From positions 1,139,816 through 1,198,232 of the forward strand of contig NZ_LR812090.1 of NCBI RefSeq assembly GCF_903772925.1: a stretch of 58,417 nt of DNA. Reading direction: 5' to 3'. The translations under genes were made by a program, and so were the position numbers. The notes below the pieces were generated by a model. That model had not been told where the DNA came from and did not search any database. It saw only the letters and a program-made list of their open reading frames with translations. This stretch comes from Alteromonas macleodii. Its GTDB lineage: Bacteria; Pseudomonadota; Gammaproteobacteria; Enterobacterales; Alteromonadaceae. Within the stretch, counting starts at the first letter, position 1. The number at the start of each line of letters is the position of its first letter. Shown here piece after piece: positions 25,897 to 33,565 of the stretch.

Positions 25897-26793
25897 CTAT
25901 TTGCTACCCATCGAAAGGGTTTGAGACATTGCAATAAAGTCATCTACGAACCCCAACACGTCAGTAGCTTTTCGATGACCTAAATAAAGGGTTTTAGTCA
26001 CGCCAGCTTCTCCCATAGATTTCGTGCATAGCAGTTCACTTTCCTTTGCTTCTTCCACAAGCCACTTAGGCAAAGCAGTAACACCACGTCCCGCAGCTAC
26101 CATTTGTAAGATAATCTCCGTGGTTTCAATGGTTTTGTGCTGTTTGACTGTGCAATTGGCAGGTGTAAGAAAATGCGTAAAAACGTCCAGTCGACTATGC
26201 TCCACCGGATAAGTTATAAGGGTTTCATTACTTAAGTCTTTTGGAGTTACAAATGATTTTTCTGCTAAGTTATGATGTTTATCCATAACCAGTACTTGCT
26301 CGTATTCAAATACGGGGGTGTAGGTAATAGTGTCTAGATGCAGTGGGTCTGGCGTAAGTAAAATGTCTATATCGTACCCGTGTAGTGCTTGTAACCCACC
26401 AAACGAAAATGCACGGCGTACATCAACATCAACATCGGGGAAGGCCTTTAAAAACGGCGCGACAACTTTTAACAGCCATTCGAAGCATGGGTAGCATTCC
26501 ATACCAATACGCAATATGCCCTGTTTTCCGTCGGCAAACTTTTGAAGCTGGGCTTCGGTGTGTTCAAACTGTGGTAAAACTCTGTGGGCAAGACCTAAAA
26601 CACTTTGACCTGCTTGGGTAAGCGTTAGCCTTCTCCCTTCTTTTTTCCACAGCGGTACGTCAAAATGCGCTTCTAATTTTTTCATTGCGTGACTCAACGC
26701 TGACTGGGTAAGGAAAAGCGATTTTGCTGCTTCCGTCATAGTACCTTCAGCATCAATTGCTCGTACTATTTTTAGATGTTGTCTATCAATCAT
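25897..26793 (-). CDS. metR: MetR-like LysR-family regulator
   Basis: This 298-residue LysR protein starts at 26793 (MIDRQHLKIVRAIDAEG). The N-terminal helix-turn-helix contains SLFLTQSALSHAMKKLE. The effector domain resembles MetR, the homocysteine-responsive activator of met genes: LRIGMECYPCFEWL, ETLITYPVEHSRLDVFTHFL and LQMVAAGRGVTALPKWLVE all have close MetR counterparts. It lies 16 bases behind the OxyR-like gene on the same strand, so they may share a transcript. A target is not visible here, since metE is absent and the nearby met operon shows MetJ boxes. Confidence 0.8.
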   Translation of the reverse strand: MIDRQHLKIVRAIDAEGTMTEAAKSLFLTQSALSHAMKKLEAHFDVPLWKKEGRRLTLTQAGQSVLGLAHRVLPQFEHTEAQLQKFADGKQGILRIGMECYPCFEWLLKVVAPFLKAFPDVDVDVRRAFSFGGLQALHGYDIDILLTPDPLHLDTITYTPVFEYEQVLVMDKHHNLAEKSFVTPKDLSNETLITYPVEHSRLDVFTHFLTPANCTVKQHKTIETTEIILQMVAAGRGVTALPKWLVEEAKESELLCTKSMGEAGVTKTLYLGHRKATDVLGFVDDFIAMSQTLSMGSK

Positions 26794-26809
26794 AGTGGGC
26801 ACACTTGGA

Positions 26810-27778
26810 CTAACGTTTCTGATAAGAGCTAGATGCAGAACTAACAATAGTGACTGCGTCAGAAAGACGAGATTCAATGATCTCCTTTATGATAATAGAG
26901 ATCTCTCTAAAGGTCTTCCTACCTGGCGCCGTGTTTCTCCAAGCCAAAGAGTGCTGACGCTCTATGGGCATATCTGCTATTTCACACACGTGCAAAGCTT
27001 CAGGTTTGTGTAGCTCAGAGTGAATATAAAGGCCGGGTAGAAAGGCTACGCCCATACCCATTACTACCATCTGGCGCAGCGTGTCTAGGCTAGTACCCTC
27101 ATAGTCCCGCTGTAAGTCGGCACCAATTTCATCGCAAATACGCTGTACTTGATGGTGAAAATGATGTCGGTCTTCTAGCGTTAGTACTTTTTCACCACTT
27201 ATTTCCTCCGGCTTAACATAGGCTTTACCCGCTAATTTATGATCGGAAGGTGTGACAAATTTTAATGGCTCTTTGAAAAGTGGCTGAGTAATCAACTGTG
27301 AGTTTTCGCCCGAAAGTGGCGATAAAATTAAGTCATACTCGCCCCGTAAAAGACCATGCTGTAGGGCATTAGGCGCGCCTTCACGTACGTAAAAACGCAA
27401 GCCAGGTTTACGTTTGTGTAAATCGGGCAAAACAAAGGGGAGTAAATAGGGCCCCAACGTTGGAGGAATACCCAATCTAAATGTCACCATCTCACCTTGA
27501 GACAAATCGCGAGCGATTTCGCCAAACCTCTGAGACGCCTGTAATACTTCTTCAGCCGCATCTAGCAGTGCTTTTCCTTGCGGAGATAAAAGCGTGCCGG
27601 TGCGTGAGCGCTCAAATAAAGTTAGGCCTAAAAGGTTTTCCAGTGCACTAATTTGACTGGTCAGAGTAGGCTGACTAATTCCTAGTATTCCCGCAGCCTG
27701 TCTGAAGCTCAAGTACTTAGCCACAGCTACAAAATAGCGGATTTGGTTTATTGAGGGGGTCTTTCCGTTAAATTGCAT
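26810..27778 (-). CDS. OxyR-like LysR regulator lacking the peroxidatic cysteine
   Basis: The 322-residue protein matches OxyR along its length: SFRQAAGILGISQPTLTSQI, LGIPPTLGPYLLPFVLP, KVLTLEDRHH and GTSLDTLRQMVVMGMGVAFLP. In E. coli OxyR, C199 and C208 form the peroxide-sensing disulfide. Here C199 aligns with H206 and only the second cysteine remains (C215). The site reads RHHFHHQVQRIC, four histidines in five residues, which could bind a metal. Classic peroxide sensing is therefore unlikely. It is divergent from a carbonic anhydrase gene, with an OxyR-type operator between them, so it probably regulates that gene. Its true signal is unknown. Confidence 0.85.
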   Translation of the reverse strand: MQFNGKTPSINQIRYFVAVAKYLSFRQAAGILGISQPTLTSQISALENLLGLTLFERSRTGTLLSPQGKALLDAAEEVLQASQRFGEIARDLSQGEMVTFRLGIPPTLGPYLLPFVLPDLHKRKPGLRFYVREGAPNALQHGLLRGEYDLILSPLSGENSQLITQPLFKEPLKFVTPSDHKLAGKAYVKPEEISGEKVLTLEDRHHFHHQVQRICDEIGADLQRDYEGTSLDTLRQMVVMGMGVAFLPGLYIHSELHKPEALHVCEIADMPIERQHSLAWRNTAPGRKTFREISIIIKEIIESRLSDAVTIVSSASSSYQKR

Positions 27779-27830
27779 GTGAAAATAGCCTTCTCTTACT
27801 AGACTTATAGTTGATGATGTTTTGGTTGTG

Positions 27831-27867
27831 ATAGTATTTAGCTATCGCGAGTTAGTATATTAAACTA
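27831..27867. promoter_or_regulatory. OxyR-type double operator between the LysR gene and carbonic anhydrase
   Basis: ATAG-N7-CTAT lies at 27831-27845 and TAGT-N7-ACTA at 27853-27867. Their centres are 22 bp apart, the same geometry as the OxyR tetramer site (ATAG-N7-CTAT-N7-ATAG-N7-CTAT). The element lies about 53 bp from the LysR start and 70 bp from the carbonic anhydrase start, suited to autoregulation and activation. The motif match is seen; binding is inferred. Confidence 0.6.
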
Positions 27868-27936
27868 TTAATCTATCAGGTGAAACTGGCGTAATTACAT
27901 AATCATTACAATTATTAAAAAAATTGGGAGTTATCT

Positions 27937-28590
27937 ATGGATCACGTTATCTCTGGTGTGGCTAAATTTCAGAAAGAAGTTTATCCGAATAAAAAAGCTA
28001 CGTTTCAAAAGCTAGCGAACGGTCAAAACCCAGAAGTGCTTTTCATTACGTGTTCAGACTCACGTATCGACCCTAACCTCGTAACACAAACTGACCCAGG
28101 TGAGCTTTTTATCTGCCGTAACGCGGGCAATATCGTTCCTCCTCACAGCAATCAAACCGGTGGCATGACAGCGTCTATTGAATTTGCTGTTGCTGCGTTA
28201 GGTGTTTCTCATATCGTTATTTGTGGTCACACTGACTGTGGTGCAATGAAAGGTGCGATCAACCCAGAAGGTTTGAGTTCACTTCCGCATGTTAAAGAAT
28301 GGTTAGGCCATTGTCGTGTGGCAACTGACGTAGTTAAAGAGCGCTGCGGTCATTCAGACTTGTCGCTAGAAGACTTGGAAGCGGTAACGAAAGAAAACGT
28401 TGTTCAACAAATTCAGCATCTTCGTACTCACCCGTCTGTTGCTGCGAAAATCGCTACAGGCCAGGTTAAGCTGCACGGCTGGGTTTATAACATCGGCGAA
28501 GGTGATGTACTTTGCTACAACGCTGAAAGCGGTGAATTTGAAGCCATGGACCAAAGCGCGGCTGAAGCACAGCTAACGCGTGGCGAATAA
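27937..28590 (+). CDS. can: Beta-class carbonic anhydrase
   Basis: The enzyme interconverts CO2 and bicarbonate. The 217-residue protein has the beta-class zinc site: C39 with the D41-R43 dyad in CSDSRIDP, and H98 and C101 in GHTDCGAMKG. GGGAG sits before ATG 27937. A SulP-type anion transporter follows 11 bases after its stop, forming a likely bicarbonate uptake and conversion unit. The OxyR-like LysR gene is divergent and may control both. Confidence 0.96.
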   Translation: MDHVISGVAKFQKEVYPNKKATFQKLANGQNPEVLFITCSDSRIDPNLVTQTDPGELFICRNAGNIVPPHSNQTGGMTASIEFAVAALGVSHIVICGHTDCGAMKGAINPEGLSSLPHVKEWLGHCRVATDVVKERCGHSDLSLEDLEAVTKENVVQQIQHLRTHPSVAAKIATGQVKLHGWVYNIGEGDVLCYNAESGEFEAMDQSAAEAQLTRGE

Positions 28591-28601
28591 GGTCAAACAC
28601 T

Positions 28602-30236
28602 ATGGTTAAAATTAATCTCTCTAATTTACGAGGCGATTTTACCGGCGGTTTAACAGCCGGTATCGTTGCCTTACCACTAGCGCTCGCGCTGGGTGTGGCG
28701 TCAGGCCTTGGCCCAATGGCTGGCCTTTACGGTGCTATCGCCGTTGGCTTTTTTGCTGCGCTGTTTGGTGGAACGCCTGCGCAAATTTCAGGTCCTACAG
28801 GGCCAATGGTGGTGGTACTTGCCGGCTTATTCGCAAGTCTTTCTGGCGACGCCAGCCTGATATTCACAGCAGTGATATTGGCGGGTATATTCCAGATTGT
28901 ATTTGGTGTACTTGGCGTCGGTCAGTACATTCGATTAGTGCCATACCCGGTAATTTCTGGCTTTATGTCGGGCATCGGTGCCATTATTATTATCCTTCAA
29001 TTAGGAAGGCTATTGGGTCATGAGCCTCCAGGTGGAACAATTGGTGCACTGTCATACCTACCTACAGCGCTTGCTGATATTGACTTCGCTACCCTTGCAT
29101 TAGGTTTAGGTACATTAGTCATTGCCTACAAATGGCCACCTCAATTAGGCAAGTATGTGCCAGGTGCACTTGCTGCGCTAATCATTGGTACGCTCGTAAG
29201 TTTAGCGCTTTCAGTACCAATTCTTGGCGATATCCCTACTGGTTTACCAAGTCTACACCTACCTGTTTTCGACCAAAGTAAGGCACTGCTAATCCTTGAA
29301 GCAGCATTCATTCTTGCTGTATTGGGCGCTATCGATAGTCTGTTGACGTCACTGGTTGCTGATAACATGACACGTACTCGTCACGACAGTAATAAAGAGC
29401 TTATCGGACAAGGTATCGGTAACACATTTGCTGGCCTTATTGGCGGTATCGCAGGTGCGGGCGCGACAATGCGTACGGTTGTTAACATTCGCAGCGGTGG
29501 TAAGTACAACATTTCAGGTATGGTTCACGCGCTAGTACTTCTTGCTATTGTGTTGGGTCTTAGCCCACTAGCCGCGCAAATTCCTCACGCAGTACTTGCA
29601 GGTATTCTAGTTAAAGTTGGTTTAGACATCATCGACTGGAGCTACCTGAAACGTGCACACAAAGGCCCCCGTTGGGACTTCGGCCTAATGATTATGGTGC
29701 TTGCACTTACGGTATTTGTAGACTTAATTACCGCAGTCGGTGTGGGCGTCGTATTTGCGGCACTTGCATACGTTAAGCAAATCGCACAGCTTCAAATTGA
29801 AGAGCTTAAGAAGATCCCTGAGTCGCTAAACGACCCTAAAGAGAATGACCTACTAGAGTCGCTTAAAGACAAAGTATCAATCTTTAGTTTTGGTGGACCA
29901 CTTAGCTTTGGCGCGGCAGCCGATTTAGGTCACCACGTACGCGAGCGAGTAAGACCTGGTGCGAAAGTCACTATACTAGACTTCTCTCGAGTACCTTTGA
30001 TGGATGTATCGGCGGCTATGGCAGTTGATACAGTAACATCAGATGCTCTTGCGGCTGGTCGACAGCTTGTTATTTGCGGTGCTAACGCTGAAGTCAATAA
30101 GGTACTTGAAGGTGTAAATGAAGCCCATCCAGGTATACCTAACTTCGAAACGCTTCACGACGCTTTGCTTTATGCAAAAAAGCAAGTAGCCGGGACTGAA
30201 AGCAACACGAGCTTTCAAGCCGCAACGCAATCGTAA
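28602..30236 (+). CDS. SulP family anion transporter with STAS domain (probable bicarbonate transporter)
   Basis: The 544-residue protein has about 10-12 membrane helices from residue 10 (GGLTAGIVALPLALALGVAS, the SulP signature; then SGPTGPMVVV) and a C-terminal STAS domain from about residue 420 (VSIFSFGGPLSFGAA, VTILDFSRVPLMDVSAA). SulP proteins carry sulfate, bicarbonate or other anions. The direct linkage to carbonic anhydrase favours bicarbonate, as inferred for similar pairs, but sulfate cannot be excluded. An intrinsic terminator follows. Confidence 0.9.
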   Translation: MVKINLSNLRGDFTGGLTAGIVALPLALALGVASGLGPMAGLYGAIAVGFFAALFGGTPAQISGPTGPMVVVLAGLFASLSGDASLIFTAVILAGIFQIVFGVLGVGQYIRLVPYPVISGFMSGIGAIIIILQLGRLLGHEPPGGTIGALSYLPTALADIDFATLALGLGTLVIAYKWPPQLGKYVPGALAALIIGTLVSLALSVPILGDIPTGLPSLHLPVFDQSKALLILEAAFILAVLGAIDSLLTSLVADNMTRTRHDSNKELIGQGIGNTFAGLIGGIAGAGATMRTVVNIRSGGKYNISGMVHALVLLAIVLGLSPLAAQIPHAVLAGILVKVGLDIIDWSYLKRAHKGPRWDFGLMIMVLALTVFVDLITAVGVGVVFAALAYVKQIAQLQIEELKKIPESLNDPKENDLLESLKDKVSIFSFGGPLSFGAAADLGHHVRERVRPGAKVTILDFSRVPLMDVSAAMAVDTVTSDALAAGRQLVICGANAEVNKVLEGVNEAHPGIPNFETLHDALLYAKKQVAGTESNTSFQAATQS

Positions 30237-30422: not shown

Positions 30423-30492
30423 ACTTAACCTAAGTGTAACAATACCCTACTAAAGTAGTGTGCAAACAATACACAACTACTTTGGGAAACAC

Positions 30493-32916
30493 ATGAAATC
30501 ACACAATAAATTGTCTATAGCAATACTTGCTGCCCTTTCATCTATGGCTGCCTCGTCACAAGTTTTGGCTGAAGAGGCTGAACGCGCAGAGGAAGAGCGT
30601 ATAGAAGAAATCACCGTTGTAGGGCGCAGCGTTTCTTACGCAAATAACGCAACCAGCGACGACATGTTTAAACAGCAGGCAAATCTTAGCAGTGTTTTAG
30701 CCGCGGTGGACAATTTACCCGGCGTACTCATTAACGAAGGCGATACCTTTGGCGCTGATGATTGGTCAACGTCTATCGTTATTCGTGGGTTTCAGGTAAA
30801 CCTAAACGAACAGCAAATAGGTATGACGGTAGATGGCATTGCCAACGGTAATTCAAACTACGGTGGTGGCGCAAAAGCAAATCGCTATATCGATACTGAA
30901 AACGTAAATGGTGTAGAGGTGTCACAGGGTACTGCAGATATCGCTTCTCGTTCTCATGAAGCATTAGGCGGCACACTAAACTTCACCACCATAGACCCGT
31001 CGATGGAGCAAGGCTTAGTCACCAGCGTAACCGCAGGCTCGTTCGATGCATCTAAATACTATGTTCGTTATGAAACGGGTGAAATATTCAAAGACACTTA
31101 CGCTTGGATAAGCCTTTCAAGTCAAGAAAGCTCTGACTTTATGCAGCAGGCGGCGGAAAATACCCGCGACCATTTAGCTATGAAGTTTATCTCTACTGTT
31201 AACGATGTATCACTTACTGGTTATCTGTCTTACGACGATACACACGAAGACAACTACCAGCGCATTTATGGTTTAGCGCAATATGAGCAAAACCCAGACT
31301 GGGACCAGCTAACTGACGAATGGACAGGTGTACCGTATCAGGATCAGGCATATCGCAGAGGTTGGTCTACATTACGGGAAAACCTTTTTGCCTATCTTCA
31401 GGCTGAATTCACCATTGGCCAAGTCGATTTTATGACTAACGTGTATTATCACGACAATGAAGGCCGTGGAGAGTGGGTGCCTCCATATATCGTTGATGTT
31501 ACTGATGACGGCGCAGAAGGCCATTCAGAGCTTGTGGTCGGTAATACGGTTTACGGCGGGCAAGAACTCGGTCAAATTTACTTTGTGGATAGACAAGGTA
31601 ATCAGCTAAGTCCAATTGAAGGTTGTCAAAGCTCATTGACTTTCCCTTATGGTGGCGCAGGCGCTGAGTATGATCCGGGGTGTCACGTGCAAGGCGCAAT
31701 TCCTGTGGGCTCATATCGTCATACTCATTATGATAAAGAACGTATTGGTATTAATGCTGATGCAGTCTGGTACACCAAAATTGAAGATTTTGACAATACG
31801 GTTCGTTTCGGAATTTGGTGGGAAGACTATGAGCGAGGTGAGTCACGTGACTGGCACAAGATCACCAATTCATCTATCAGTGTAGATTATGACAACGTGC
31901 CTTATTGGGTGCAGTACGACAGAACATTCCCGGTAGATACCCTAATGTACTATGTGGAAGACGAGCTAGACCTAGGTTTTGCTCGCATCCGTGCCGGTGC
32001 GAAGAAGTTTAACGTCGATATTGAAAAAACGGACAATTTCGATTCAGCCAACAACTTAGCGGTAAATACTGATTCAGATACGCTATTCTCAGCGGGTATC
32101 GTCGCACCACTACCCATTGAAGGAGTAGAGGTTTTTGCGGGTTACGGTGAAAACTTTGCGGCAATAAAAGACGCCCAGCTTGAACGCAACGATACCGACC
32201 TTCGTTTTATAAAGCCAGAAACCGCTGACAACATCGACGTGGGTTTCCGCTATGCATCACCAGGCTTTAATGCCAGTGTGACCTACTACAATATAGAGTT
32301 TAACGACCGTATCCAATTTACCAGTAACGAGACTTCAGAGGGTATAGACTTTCTGGAAGCGGCCGCTGGTGGTTATAAAAATGTGGGGGGGATCGAATCT
32401 AGTGGTTTTGAAATTTCAGCAGACGTTATGCTAACTGAAGAGTTCTCGTTGTTTACCTCTATTACCCTAAGCGACTCTGAGTACGTTGCGACGGTAGGCA
32501 GTTCAGGTACGCAATACGATACACTTGCTGATGCCCAAGCTGCTATTGCAGACGCTGAAAACCCTGAGGTATCGCTGGTAGCTATTGAAGGTAATACGGT
32601 TATCGGTACACCTGATACTATGGCAGTTGTGAGCCTAGACTGGGCACGCGACAACTACTTTGCTGGCTTATCGACTAAGTACGTTGATAGCCGCTACCTA
32701 GATATCGAAAATGCGGCGCAAGTAGATGACTACATTGTTAGCGACTTCTATGTGGGAGGTTTTATTGAAAACATAGGGCCGGGTGTTGAAGAACTCGAAG
32801 TGCGTCTAACCGTCAATAACTTGTTCGATGAAGATTACGCTTCGACCATAGCGCCGGGGGCATTTTGGATTGGTGCACCGCGGGCGGTAGCAGTCAACGC
32901 ACGCTTAACCTTTTAA
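30493..32916 (+). CDS. TonB-dependent outer-membrane receptor
   Basis: This 807-residue protein starts at ATG 30493 with a signal peptide (MKSHNKLSIAILAALSSMAA, cut after VLA). A TonB-box-like EEITVVGR follows, then a plug domain (LPGVLINEGDTFGADDWSTS, IVIRGFQVN) and a beta barrel ending VNNLFDEDYASTIAPGAFW and a terminal aromatic ARLTF. One extracellular loop holds two cysteines (near residues 390-410). The substrate is not evident; many such receptors in Alteromonas take up iron chelates, sugars or other large nutrients. The BetI-like regulator behind it is the best clue to control. Confidence 0.92.
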   Translation: MKSHNKLSIAILAALSSMAASSQVLAEEAERAEEERIEEITVVGRSVSYANNATSDDMFKQQANLSSVLAAVDNLPGVLINEGDTFGADDWSTSIVIRGFQVNLNEQQIGMTVDGIANGNSNYGGGAKANRYIDTENVNGVEVSQGTADIASRSHEALGGTLNFTTIDPSMEQGLVTSVTAGSFDASKYYVRYETGEIFKDTYAWISLSSQESSDFMQQAAENTRDHLAMKFISTVNDVSLTGYLSYDDTHEDNYQRIYGLAQYEQNPDWDQLTDEWTGVPYQDQAYRRGWSTLRENLFAYLQAEFTIGQVDFMTNVYYHDNEGRGEWVPPYIVDVTDDGAEGHSELVVGNTVYGGQELGQIYFVDRQGNQLSPIEGCQSSLTFPYGGAGAEYDPGCHVQGAIPVGSYRHTHYDKERIGINADAVWYTKIEDFDNTVRFGIWWEDYERGESRDWHKITNSSISVDYDNVPYWVQYDRTFPVDTLMYYVEDELDLGFARIRAGAKKFNVDIEKTDNFDSANNLAVNTDSDTLFSAGIVAPLPIEGVEVFAGYGENFAAIKDAQLERNDTDLRFIKPETADNIDVGFRYASPGFNASVTYYNIEFNDRIQFTSNETSEGIDFLEAAAGGYKNVGGIESSGFEISADVMLTEEFSLFTSITLSDSEYVATVGSSGTQYDTLADAQAAIADAENPEVSLVAIEGNTVIGTPDTMAVVSLDWARDNYFAGLSTKYVDSRYLDIENAAQVDDYIVSDFYVGGFIENIGPGVEELEVRLTVNNLFDEDYASTIAPGAFWIGAPRAVAVNARLTF

Positions 32917-32930
32917 TCGTGATATCATAC

Positions 32931-32965
32931 CTGCGACAGCATAGCGCTGTTGCAGGTTATTTTTT
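32931..32965 (+). terminator. Intrinsic terminator after the TonB receptor
   Basis: CTGCGACAGC and GCTGTTGCAG pair over ten positions (one G-U) around ATAGC, followed by GTTA and six Ts at 32960-32965. It separates the receptor from the BetI-like gene. Confidence 0.8.
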
Positions 32966-32989
32966 AGATTTAAGGTTTGGAGTTGTAGC

Positions 32990-33565
32990 ATGCCCAAGGT
33001 GGGAATGGAGCCAGTTCGCAAGAAGCAATTAATTGAAGCAACGCTGGAAGTGATGGCAGAGGTTGGCTATCACGGCACAACGATTAGCTTAATTAGCAAA
33101 AAAGCTGGGCTTTCTTCAGGGATAATCAGTCACTATTTCGGTGATAAGCAAGGGTTAATTGAAGCAACTATGCGCCATCTTCTCGATGCGCTAAAAATTA
33201 CGCAGCGTATTGACGACCCGCTGCAGCGTATCGACTTCATTATCGAAAACAATTTTTCGCAAACGCAAGGGGCAAGTTCAGCCACCAATACTTGGTTTAA
33301 CTTTTGGGCGCTATCGCTACACAATGAAGGGCTGCACCGTTTGCAAACTATCAACCATAAGCGCTTAGAGCGGAATTTAGCTTTTAGCTACCGCAAGCTG
33401 CTTCAACCTGCACAGGTCAAAAACGCCGCTGCGTCCACCGCTGCGCTAATTGATGGTTATTGGCTGCGCTATTCAATGGGAAGCGTAGGAAACGGTGATT
33501 TTTCGGAAGCTGTAGCGCGCTGTAAGCAATACGTTCGCGATTTAGTTGCCCAATACGGAAAATAA
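32990..33565 (+). CDS. betI: BetI-like TetR-family repressor
   Basis: The 191-residue protein follows E. coli BetI closely, from MPKVGMEPVRKKQLIEATLE through the helix-turn-helix and the helix-3 motif SGIISHYFGDKQGLIEATMR, to WFNFWALSLHNEGLHRLQ and AALIDGYWLR. BetI represses choline-to-betaine genes and responds to choline. No betA, betB or betT is near; the neighbours are a TonB receptor and a convergent M13 peptidase. The name therefore rests on the sequence. It may control the receptor upstream via the dyad at 30403, or distant bet genes. Confidence 0.82.
   Translation: MPKVGMEPVRKKQLIEATLEVMAEVGYHGTTISLISKKAGLSSGIISHYFGDKQGLIEATMRHLLDALKITQRIDDPLQRIDFIIENNFSQTQGASSATNTWFNFWALSLHNEGLHRLQTINHKRLERNLAFSYRKLLQPAQVKNAAASTAALIDGYWLRYSMGSVGNGDFSEAVARCKQYVRDLVAQYGK

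Follow-up and report, generated by a model that had tools for sequence, protein, structure and literature searches.

An OxyR-derived LysR-type regulator without the peroxidatic cysteine in Alteromonas macleodii, probably dedicated to inorganic-carbon supply

The window, by which we mean the whole stretch of 58,417 nucleotides of Alteromonas macleodii DNA that was analyzed, contains a gene for an OxyR-like regulator that is divergent from genes for a carbonic anhydrase (CA) and a SulP-family transporter. The features are as follows:

26810..27778, minus strand: OxyR-like LysR-type regulator of 322 amino acid residues (HTH_1, residues 10-69; LysR_substrate, residues 96-292)
27134..27136, minus strand: codon of C215, the equivalent of OxyR C208, kept in 80/80 aligned members of the family
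27152..27166, minus strand: HHFHH, residues 205-209, in which H206 replaces OxyR C199, H205 corresponds to H198 and H208 to R201
27830..27846, no strand assigned: predicted operator GATAG-N7-CTATC between the divergent genes, an OxyR-type ATAG-N7-CTAT palindrome
27865..27878, no strand assigned: predicted activation half-site CTAT-N4-CTATCA, conserved and situated 34-47 bp away from the first ATAG
27937..28590, plus strand: beta-class CA of 217 amino acid residues (Pfam Pro_CA, E=4.9e-50)
28602..30236, plus strand: SulP-family transporter with a STAS domain, a predicted bicarbonate transporter nearest to the BicA model

The regulator is assigned to the LysR type by its Pfam HTH_1 and LysR_substrate domains (7.1e-19 and 1.2e-43), and the loop region of the translated product contains the sequence LEDRHHFHHQVQRIC. 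Alignment with Pseudomonas aeruginosa OxyR (4x6g, the C199D protein; E=2.5e-44 over residues 9-291) and with Escherichia coli OxyR equates H205 with H198, H206 with C199, F207 with L200, H208 with R201 and H209 with D202; further equivalences are C215 with C208, T107 with T100, P136 with T129 and R274 with R266. The original prediction, which placed an HHFHH cluster here, with a histidine at the position of C199 and C215 as the second cysteine, was thus right about the residues. The NCBIfam OxyR equivalog is the top model for the protein, at 188.3 bits, which is below its cut-off of 329; the two-cysteine OxyR of the same genome likewise scores under this value (183.6 bits).

Conservation was assessed in two sets of relatives. 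Among the query and the best 120 of 1859 homologous proteins found (121 in all), HHxH is present in 117, HHxHH in 73 and C215 in 120, with position 206 being His in 117, Gln in 3 and Tyr in 1. The second set, hereafter the family, was drawn from a scan of one genome per species and consists of the window protein plus 79 of the best 80 loci out of at least 572 relatives (n=80). The locus left out, from Alteromonas sp. KUL49 (L107), has a regulator frame that appears to be broken; its SulP gene remains, and no CA match is present in the locus. Position 206 of the family is occupied by His (51), Leu (22), Ser (2), Ala (2), Tyr, Pro or Thr (1 each) and never by Cys, which is found at this site in all 28 canonical OxyR rows. 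H205 is kept in 79 of the 80 members, position 208 is His in 72, Tyr in 4, Arg in 3 and Asn in 1, and position 209 is His in 35 and Arg in 27. C215, the counterpart of the resolving cysteine, is invariant and is the sole cysteine of the loop, none having been found elsewhere in it among the aligned members that were read.

The histidine cluster, whose absence from close relatives was the outcome that the original prediction had named as speaking against it, is present in those relatives, and because it is conserved among them it is not a product of chance. The full HHxHH motif, on the other hand, occurs in just 33 of the 80 members, and the complete ligand set of HHxHH plus the cysteine is not conserved. 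Judged from these alignments, the change that defines the family is the loss of C199 with the equivalents of H198 and C208 retained, and the four-histidine cluster is a variant largely confined to Alteromonas and its closer relatives.

This pattern bears upon the proposal that four histidines and a cysteine form a metal or heme site, which would couple zinc status to CA, a zinc enzyme. H205, H208 and C215 are conserved as such a sensor would have it, but H206 and H209 are not, and both vary among members whose regulator genes adjoin CA and SulP genes; for this reason the site was rejected as the main reading. In the predicted structure a helix spanning residues 208-218 carries both H208 and C215, and a rise of 1.5 Å per residue would separate these two, seven residues apart, by about 10 Å along the helix, probably too far for a single site without refolding. 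For comparison, the distance between C199 and C208 in reduced OxyR is given as 18 Å in the available part of PMC2881104. The regulator is, furthermore, linked to CAs of the COG4337-type iota class, the tested members of which are metal-free according to PMC8132391. We regard a metal or heme sensor as improbable.

Relative to the OxyR proteins of E. coli, P. aeruginosa and Neisseria meningitidis, the family has lost C199 throughout, has His in place of R201 in most members and has Pro in place of T129 in 69 of 80. The last residue is named as part of the H2O2 binding environment in the accessible text of PMC7038661; the other residues of that site persist, T100 in 78, H198 in 79 and R266 in 80 members. 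Three substitutions, H218D, R220E and A221G, are each found in 80/80 members, each letter occurring in one of the 28 canonical rows, and A233M is found in 79/80. A likeness to always-active OxyR mutants, considered from the part of the literature available, was not borne out at most positions. In a tree built without the loop columns a fully supported branch separates the family from the 28 canonical OxyR rows, with the long branches being flagged. The branch and the residues agree that the regulator is OxyR-derived, having lost C199 and kept the C208 equivalent, as was originally predicted, and it probably does not sense peroxide by a C199-type mechanism. Two members, L099 and L115, constitute a possible sister lineage in which the loop reads SSYH and both the cysteine and the operator are kept; the branch separating them from the other 78 members receives no support.

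The nearest solved chain to the window CA is 5swc (E=2.3e-55), also a beta-CA. For the transporter it is 6ki1 (E=1.5e-111), a chain labelled "Low affinity sulfate transporter" which we take to be cyanobacterial BicA. These two nearest relatives have their counterparts here side by side, divergent from the regulator gene, and the arrangement first predicted for this locus, a divergent zinc CA followed by SulP, is the one found. A CA and/or SulP gene lies close by in 78 of the 80 loci, nearly always divergent from the regulator. The classes are beta-CA with SulP (59 loci), iota-CA with SulP (8), beta-CA only (3), SulP only (8) and neither (2), although some loci end with their contigs, so that not every absence of CA or SulP is real. 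CA genes, of the beta and two iota types, are thus present in 70 loci, including one of the 59 (L070) in which only CA-like stretches of 38 and 26 residues are found. At another locus (L110) the CA and SulP proteins are just 27-28% identical to those of the window.

In the CA position some loci carry a different class of the enzyme. The gene between regulator and SulP in L103 encodes a homologue of the solved COG4337-type iota-CAs 7c5x and 7c5v, and BLAST places the same type between these genes in L100 and L102; a relative of COG4875-type iota-CAs (homologue of 3h51) takes the CA place in L120, and likewise in L125. An exception to the divergent layout is L076, where, as in genomes G006 and G788, the iota-CA gene lies beyond the end of the regulator gene. 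Both iota classes are described in PMC8132391, the available part of which mentions no regulator for a bacterial iota-CA. The exchange of one CA class for another at a fixed position is the strongest indication that the locus has to do with inorganic carbon. Seven loci (L055, L062-L066 and L068) encode an additional SulP-family protein, with 26-28% identity to that of the window, in the interval from the first CA gene to the usual SulP gene, and in six of these (L055, L062-L065 and L068, but not L066) a second CA open reading frame also precedes the usual SulP gene.

The original prediction spoke of a metal- or CO2-related sensor. With CA and/or SulP genes linked to the regulator across 78 of 80 loci, the CO2/bicarbonate half of that guess is strengthened and now has strong support, as does the link of the family with CA and SulP; the metal or heme half is weakly supported. 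The transporter could instead be a sulfate carrier, with the regulator governing sulfate or general anion uptake and the CA being incidental. SulP is a broad anion family that also carries sulfate, the label of 6ki1 is in keeping with this, and LysR-type regulators of sulfur metabolism, such as CysB, are common. Against it, the window transporter scores 542 bits with the NCBIfam BicA model (cut-off 880, not reached) versus 301 with DauA and 282 with sulP, 70 of the 80 loci carry a CA of one of three types (L070 in short stretches only), and one target predicted in trans is itself a CA. This reading appears the least probable of those considered.

The link to carbon is not universal. The two loci without CA or SulP, L099 and L115, lie near genes of Mrp/Mnh-type antiporters. 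Among four class-level loci (L131-L134), one adjoins a CA-SulP pair, and the other three (L131-L133; 42-45% identity) adjoin instead a pair of genes for a protease and a small protein, with no CA or SulP found within 1.5 kb. One genome, G627, has two paralogues of the family, L133 next to the protease pair and L134 next to CA-SulP, which gives the impression of a divided regulon.

The region between the divergent genes possesses a palindrome of the kind bound by OxyR. When the 210 bp preceding the regulator gene were scanned, 52 of 81 intergenic regions contained an exact ATAG-N7-CTAT and the other 29 did not; in 100 dinucleotide shuffles of the 81 regions the mean was 0.55 and the maximum 3. 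Alignment of the 52 gives the consensus TGATAG-N7-CTATCACGAA, followed by CTAT at +34 and CTATCA at +42, and CTATC lies at exactly +42 in 33 of the 52 aligned regions, compared with none of the 52 in a control stretch upstream. The published OxyR repeat unit consists of two tandem ATAG-N7-CTAT elements 7-10 bp apart (PMC8787470), a layout from which the second repeat departs. A scan of positions 27700-27960 found no sigma-70 consensus promoter.

The 4.67-Mb genome to which the window belongs contains five copies of GATAGN7CTATC, as against three matches to the reversed pattern used as control. Apart from the copy between the regulator and CA genes, there is one at 2066725-2066741, some 50 bp upstream of an iota-CA gene (G000:C1:2066170-2066673; 7c5v, E=1.6e-29). 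From 395 genomes of the taxonomic family 30 iota-CA loci were listed, and the 19 close ones (at least 81% identity) were used for comparison. Of 14 genomes with the regulator, 12 have an exact site within 300 bp of the iota-CA gene, the exceptions being G980 and G348; of five without it, none does (Fisher p=0.0018, a value weakened by the relatedness of the genomes). On the tree this amounts to three independent pairs on supported branches, about two in favor, none against and one showing no difference, a comparison of little power. In one genus (g14), G936 lacks both the regulator and the iota-CA site, and G844, G867, G819 and G950 have both.

The third site of this genome (3331054-3331070) lies between a gene for a retropepsin-like protease and a gene for a small secreted protein. 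The two are divergent (G000:C1:3330358-3331509; L129, L239), and the small protein exhibits repeated GKPPFKR/GKPPYRR/TRPPFKR motifs and has no Pfam family match; one might guess at a protease paired with its repetitive substrate, or with a peptide precursor. The pair was found in 23 of the 395 genomes, all of which carry the regulator, and the site between its genes is exact in 15, has one mismatch in 5 and is weaker in 3. 22 of these 23 genomes come from a single genus, and the regulator is also present in at least 16 genomes outside this set, so the co-occurrence carries less weight than the sites. ATAG-N7-CTAT recurs between the same two genes in L132 and L133; L131 has no exact copy. The two remaining matches of the genome, L127 and L130, lie inside genes and are probably due to chance. 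Six relatives gave 36 exact sites versus 20 for the reversed control, or 4-8 matches per genome for the real pattern and 0-7 for the reversed one. Because 15 of 20 further sites from these relatives are at no known target (four are at the protease pair and one, L238, is near a weak match), single sites elsewhere mean little.

The main rival to a role in carbon supply is that the protein is a one-cysteine OxyR, in which peroxide oxidizes C215 to sulfenic acid and CA and SulP are simply among the targets. It gains from the retention of C215 in every family member and in 120 of 121 proteins (the query and the best 120 of 1859 homologues), from the OxyR type of the operator, which canonical OxyR could in principle bind as well, and from Deinococcus radiodurans OxyR (DR0615), in which the C208 equivalent is likewise the only one of the two cysteines left and for which PMC2881104 reports a response to peroxide. 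The likeness to DR0615, compared here by description, ends at the gene neighborhood, where no peroxide gene was identified: no catalase, peroxidase or peroxiredoxin is among the identified neighbors at the 80 loci (few of the 119 open reading frames without a CA or SulP match being identified), and neither catalase nor peroxidase is among the identified genes at the operator sites of the window's own genome. The replacement of T129, a residue of the H2O2 environment in PMC7038661, by Pro in 69 of 80 members also argues against it. The same genome, moreover, encodes a separate OxyR of 302 amino acid residues (L010) with both cysteines (EHCMTGHAVSAC). With this protein as query, matches were obtained in all 12 regulator-bearing genomes checked, three of them only 27-31% identical, and in 11 of the genomes the best match carries both cysteines; by the alignment used, the exception (G418) has C199 alone. 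Taken together, a peroxide sensor of this kind seems unlikely here.

In its setting the regulator resembles CmpR and NdhR/CcmR, which the available text of PMC4390856 describes as LysR-type regulators of cyanobacterial carbon uptake, CmpR being divergent from a bicarbonate transporter operon and answering to carbon metabolites. Divergence from genes of carbon uptake is a property shared by the family at the 78 loci with CA and/or SulP. By sequence it is nearer OxyR, with 155 bits to 4x6g versus 89 to 5y2v (CcmR) and 28 to 5z49 (the effector-domain chain of CmpR). To our knowledge the hosts of the family are mostly marine bacteria that are not known as autotrophs.

We consider it likely that this protein is an OxyR-derived LysR-type regulator, devoid of the peroxidatic cysteine, which is dedicated to the supply of inorganic carbon (CO2/bicarbonate), with predicted control over the divergent CA-SulP genes and, in trans, over the iota-CA gene. 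The features on which this proposal is built are legible in the DNA and its translations: loss of C199, equivalents of C208, H198, R266 and T100, linkage to CA and SulP, a motif shared by three loci of the genome, and its recurrence in relatives. A tetramer of the regulator would occupy 27830-27846 and, upon receiving a signal, extend to the CA-side element CTAT-N4-CTATCA (27865-27878), thereby activating CA-SulP. Such activation would most likely occur under inorganic-carbon shortage, the regulator being mostly an activator.

More tentatively, and with greater doubt attached than to the role in carbon supply, the peroxide pocket of OxyR may have been turned into a receptor for bicarbonate or CO2 which senses inorganic carbon directly, with the OxyR DNA code kept and a regulon of beta-CA, BicA-like SulP, metal-free iota-CA and the secreted protease-peptide pair. 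Bicarbonate or CO2 as ligand is an inference. In what is the weakest part of this scheme, the old pocket (T107, H205, H208 and R274, with Pro in place of T129 and His or Leu in place of C199) might hold a small ligand that reports carbon status, for which bicarbonate, the simplest candidate, is a first guess, and C215 together with H205/H208 might serve an allosteric switch rather than peroxide reduction. The invariance of C215 is a loose end, as a pure ligand sensor would not need it, and the protein may, with low probability, take a redox input, whether as its only signal or combined with one from carbon.

The component kinds are already known. Their combination, in which an OxyR-derived regulator lacking C199 is linked to several CA classes and SulP, was not found in the open-licence literature searched by title and the start of the abstract. 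For marine bacteria other than cyanobacteria, the locus offers a candidate regulator of inorganic-carbon supply for which the operator is mapped, three regulon targets are predicted and residues are named, and, if the proposal is true, a testable example of CO2 or bicarbonate sensing in such bacteria. It suggests a route by which the OxyR scaffold could change its signal and keep its DNA code, and it ties a previously uncharacterized pair of protease and small-secreted-protein genes to the same operator. Many source names among the best 120 of 1859 homologues read "hydrogen peroxide-inducible genes activator," and family records so named are probably wrong in function. Two close homologues (P0003 and P0087) are named "hyaluronan synthase" at source, an evident annotation error.

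Other genes flank the locus in the window. Following the regulator on the minus strand is a MetR-like LysR gene (25897-26877), whose longest open reading frame shares 68 bases with the end of the regulator gene, an overlap that would disappear with a later ATG start. Beyond the SulP gene, the region 30460-33565 contains a large open reading frame that by eye resembles an outer-membrane receptor, and then a BetI-type TetR regulator that scores over the cut-off of its family.
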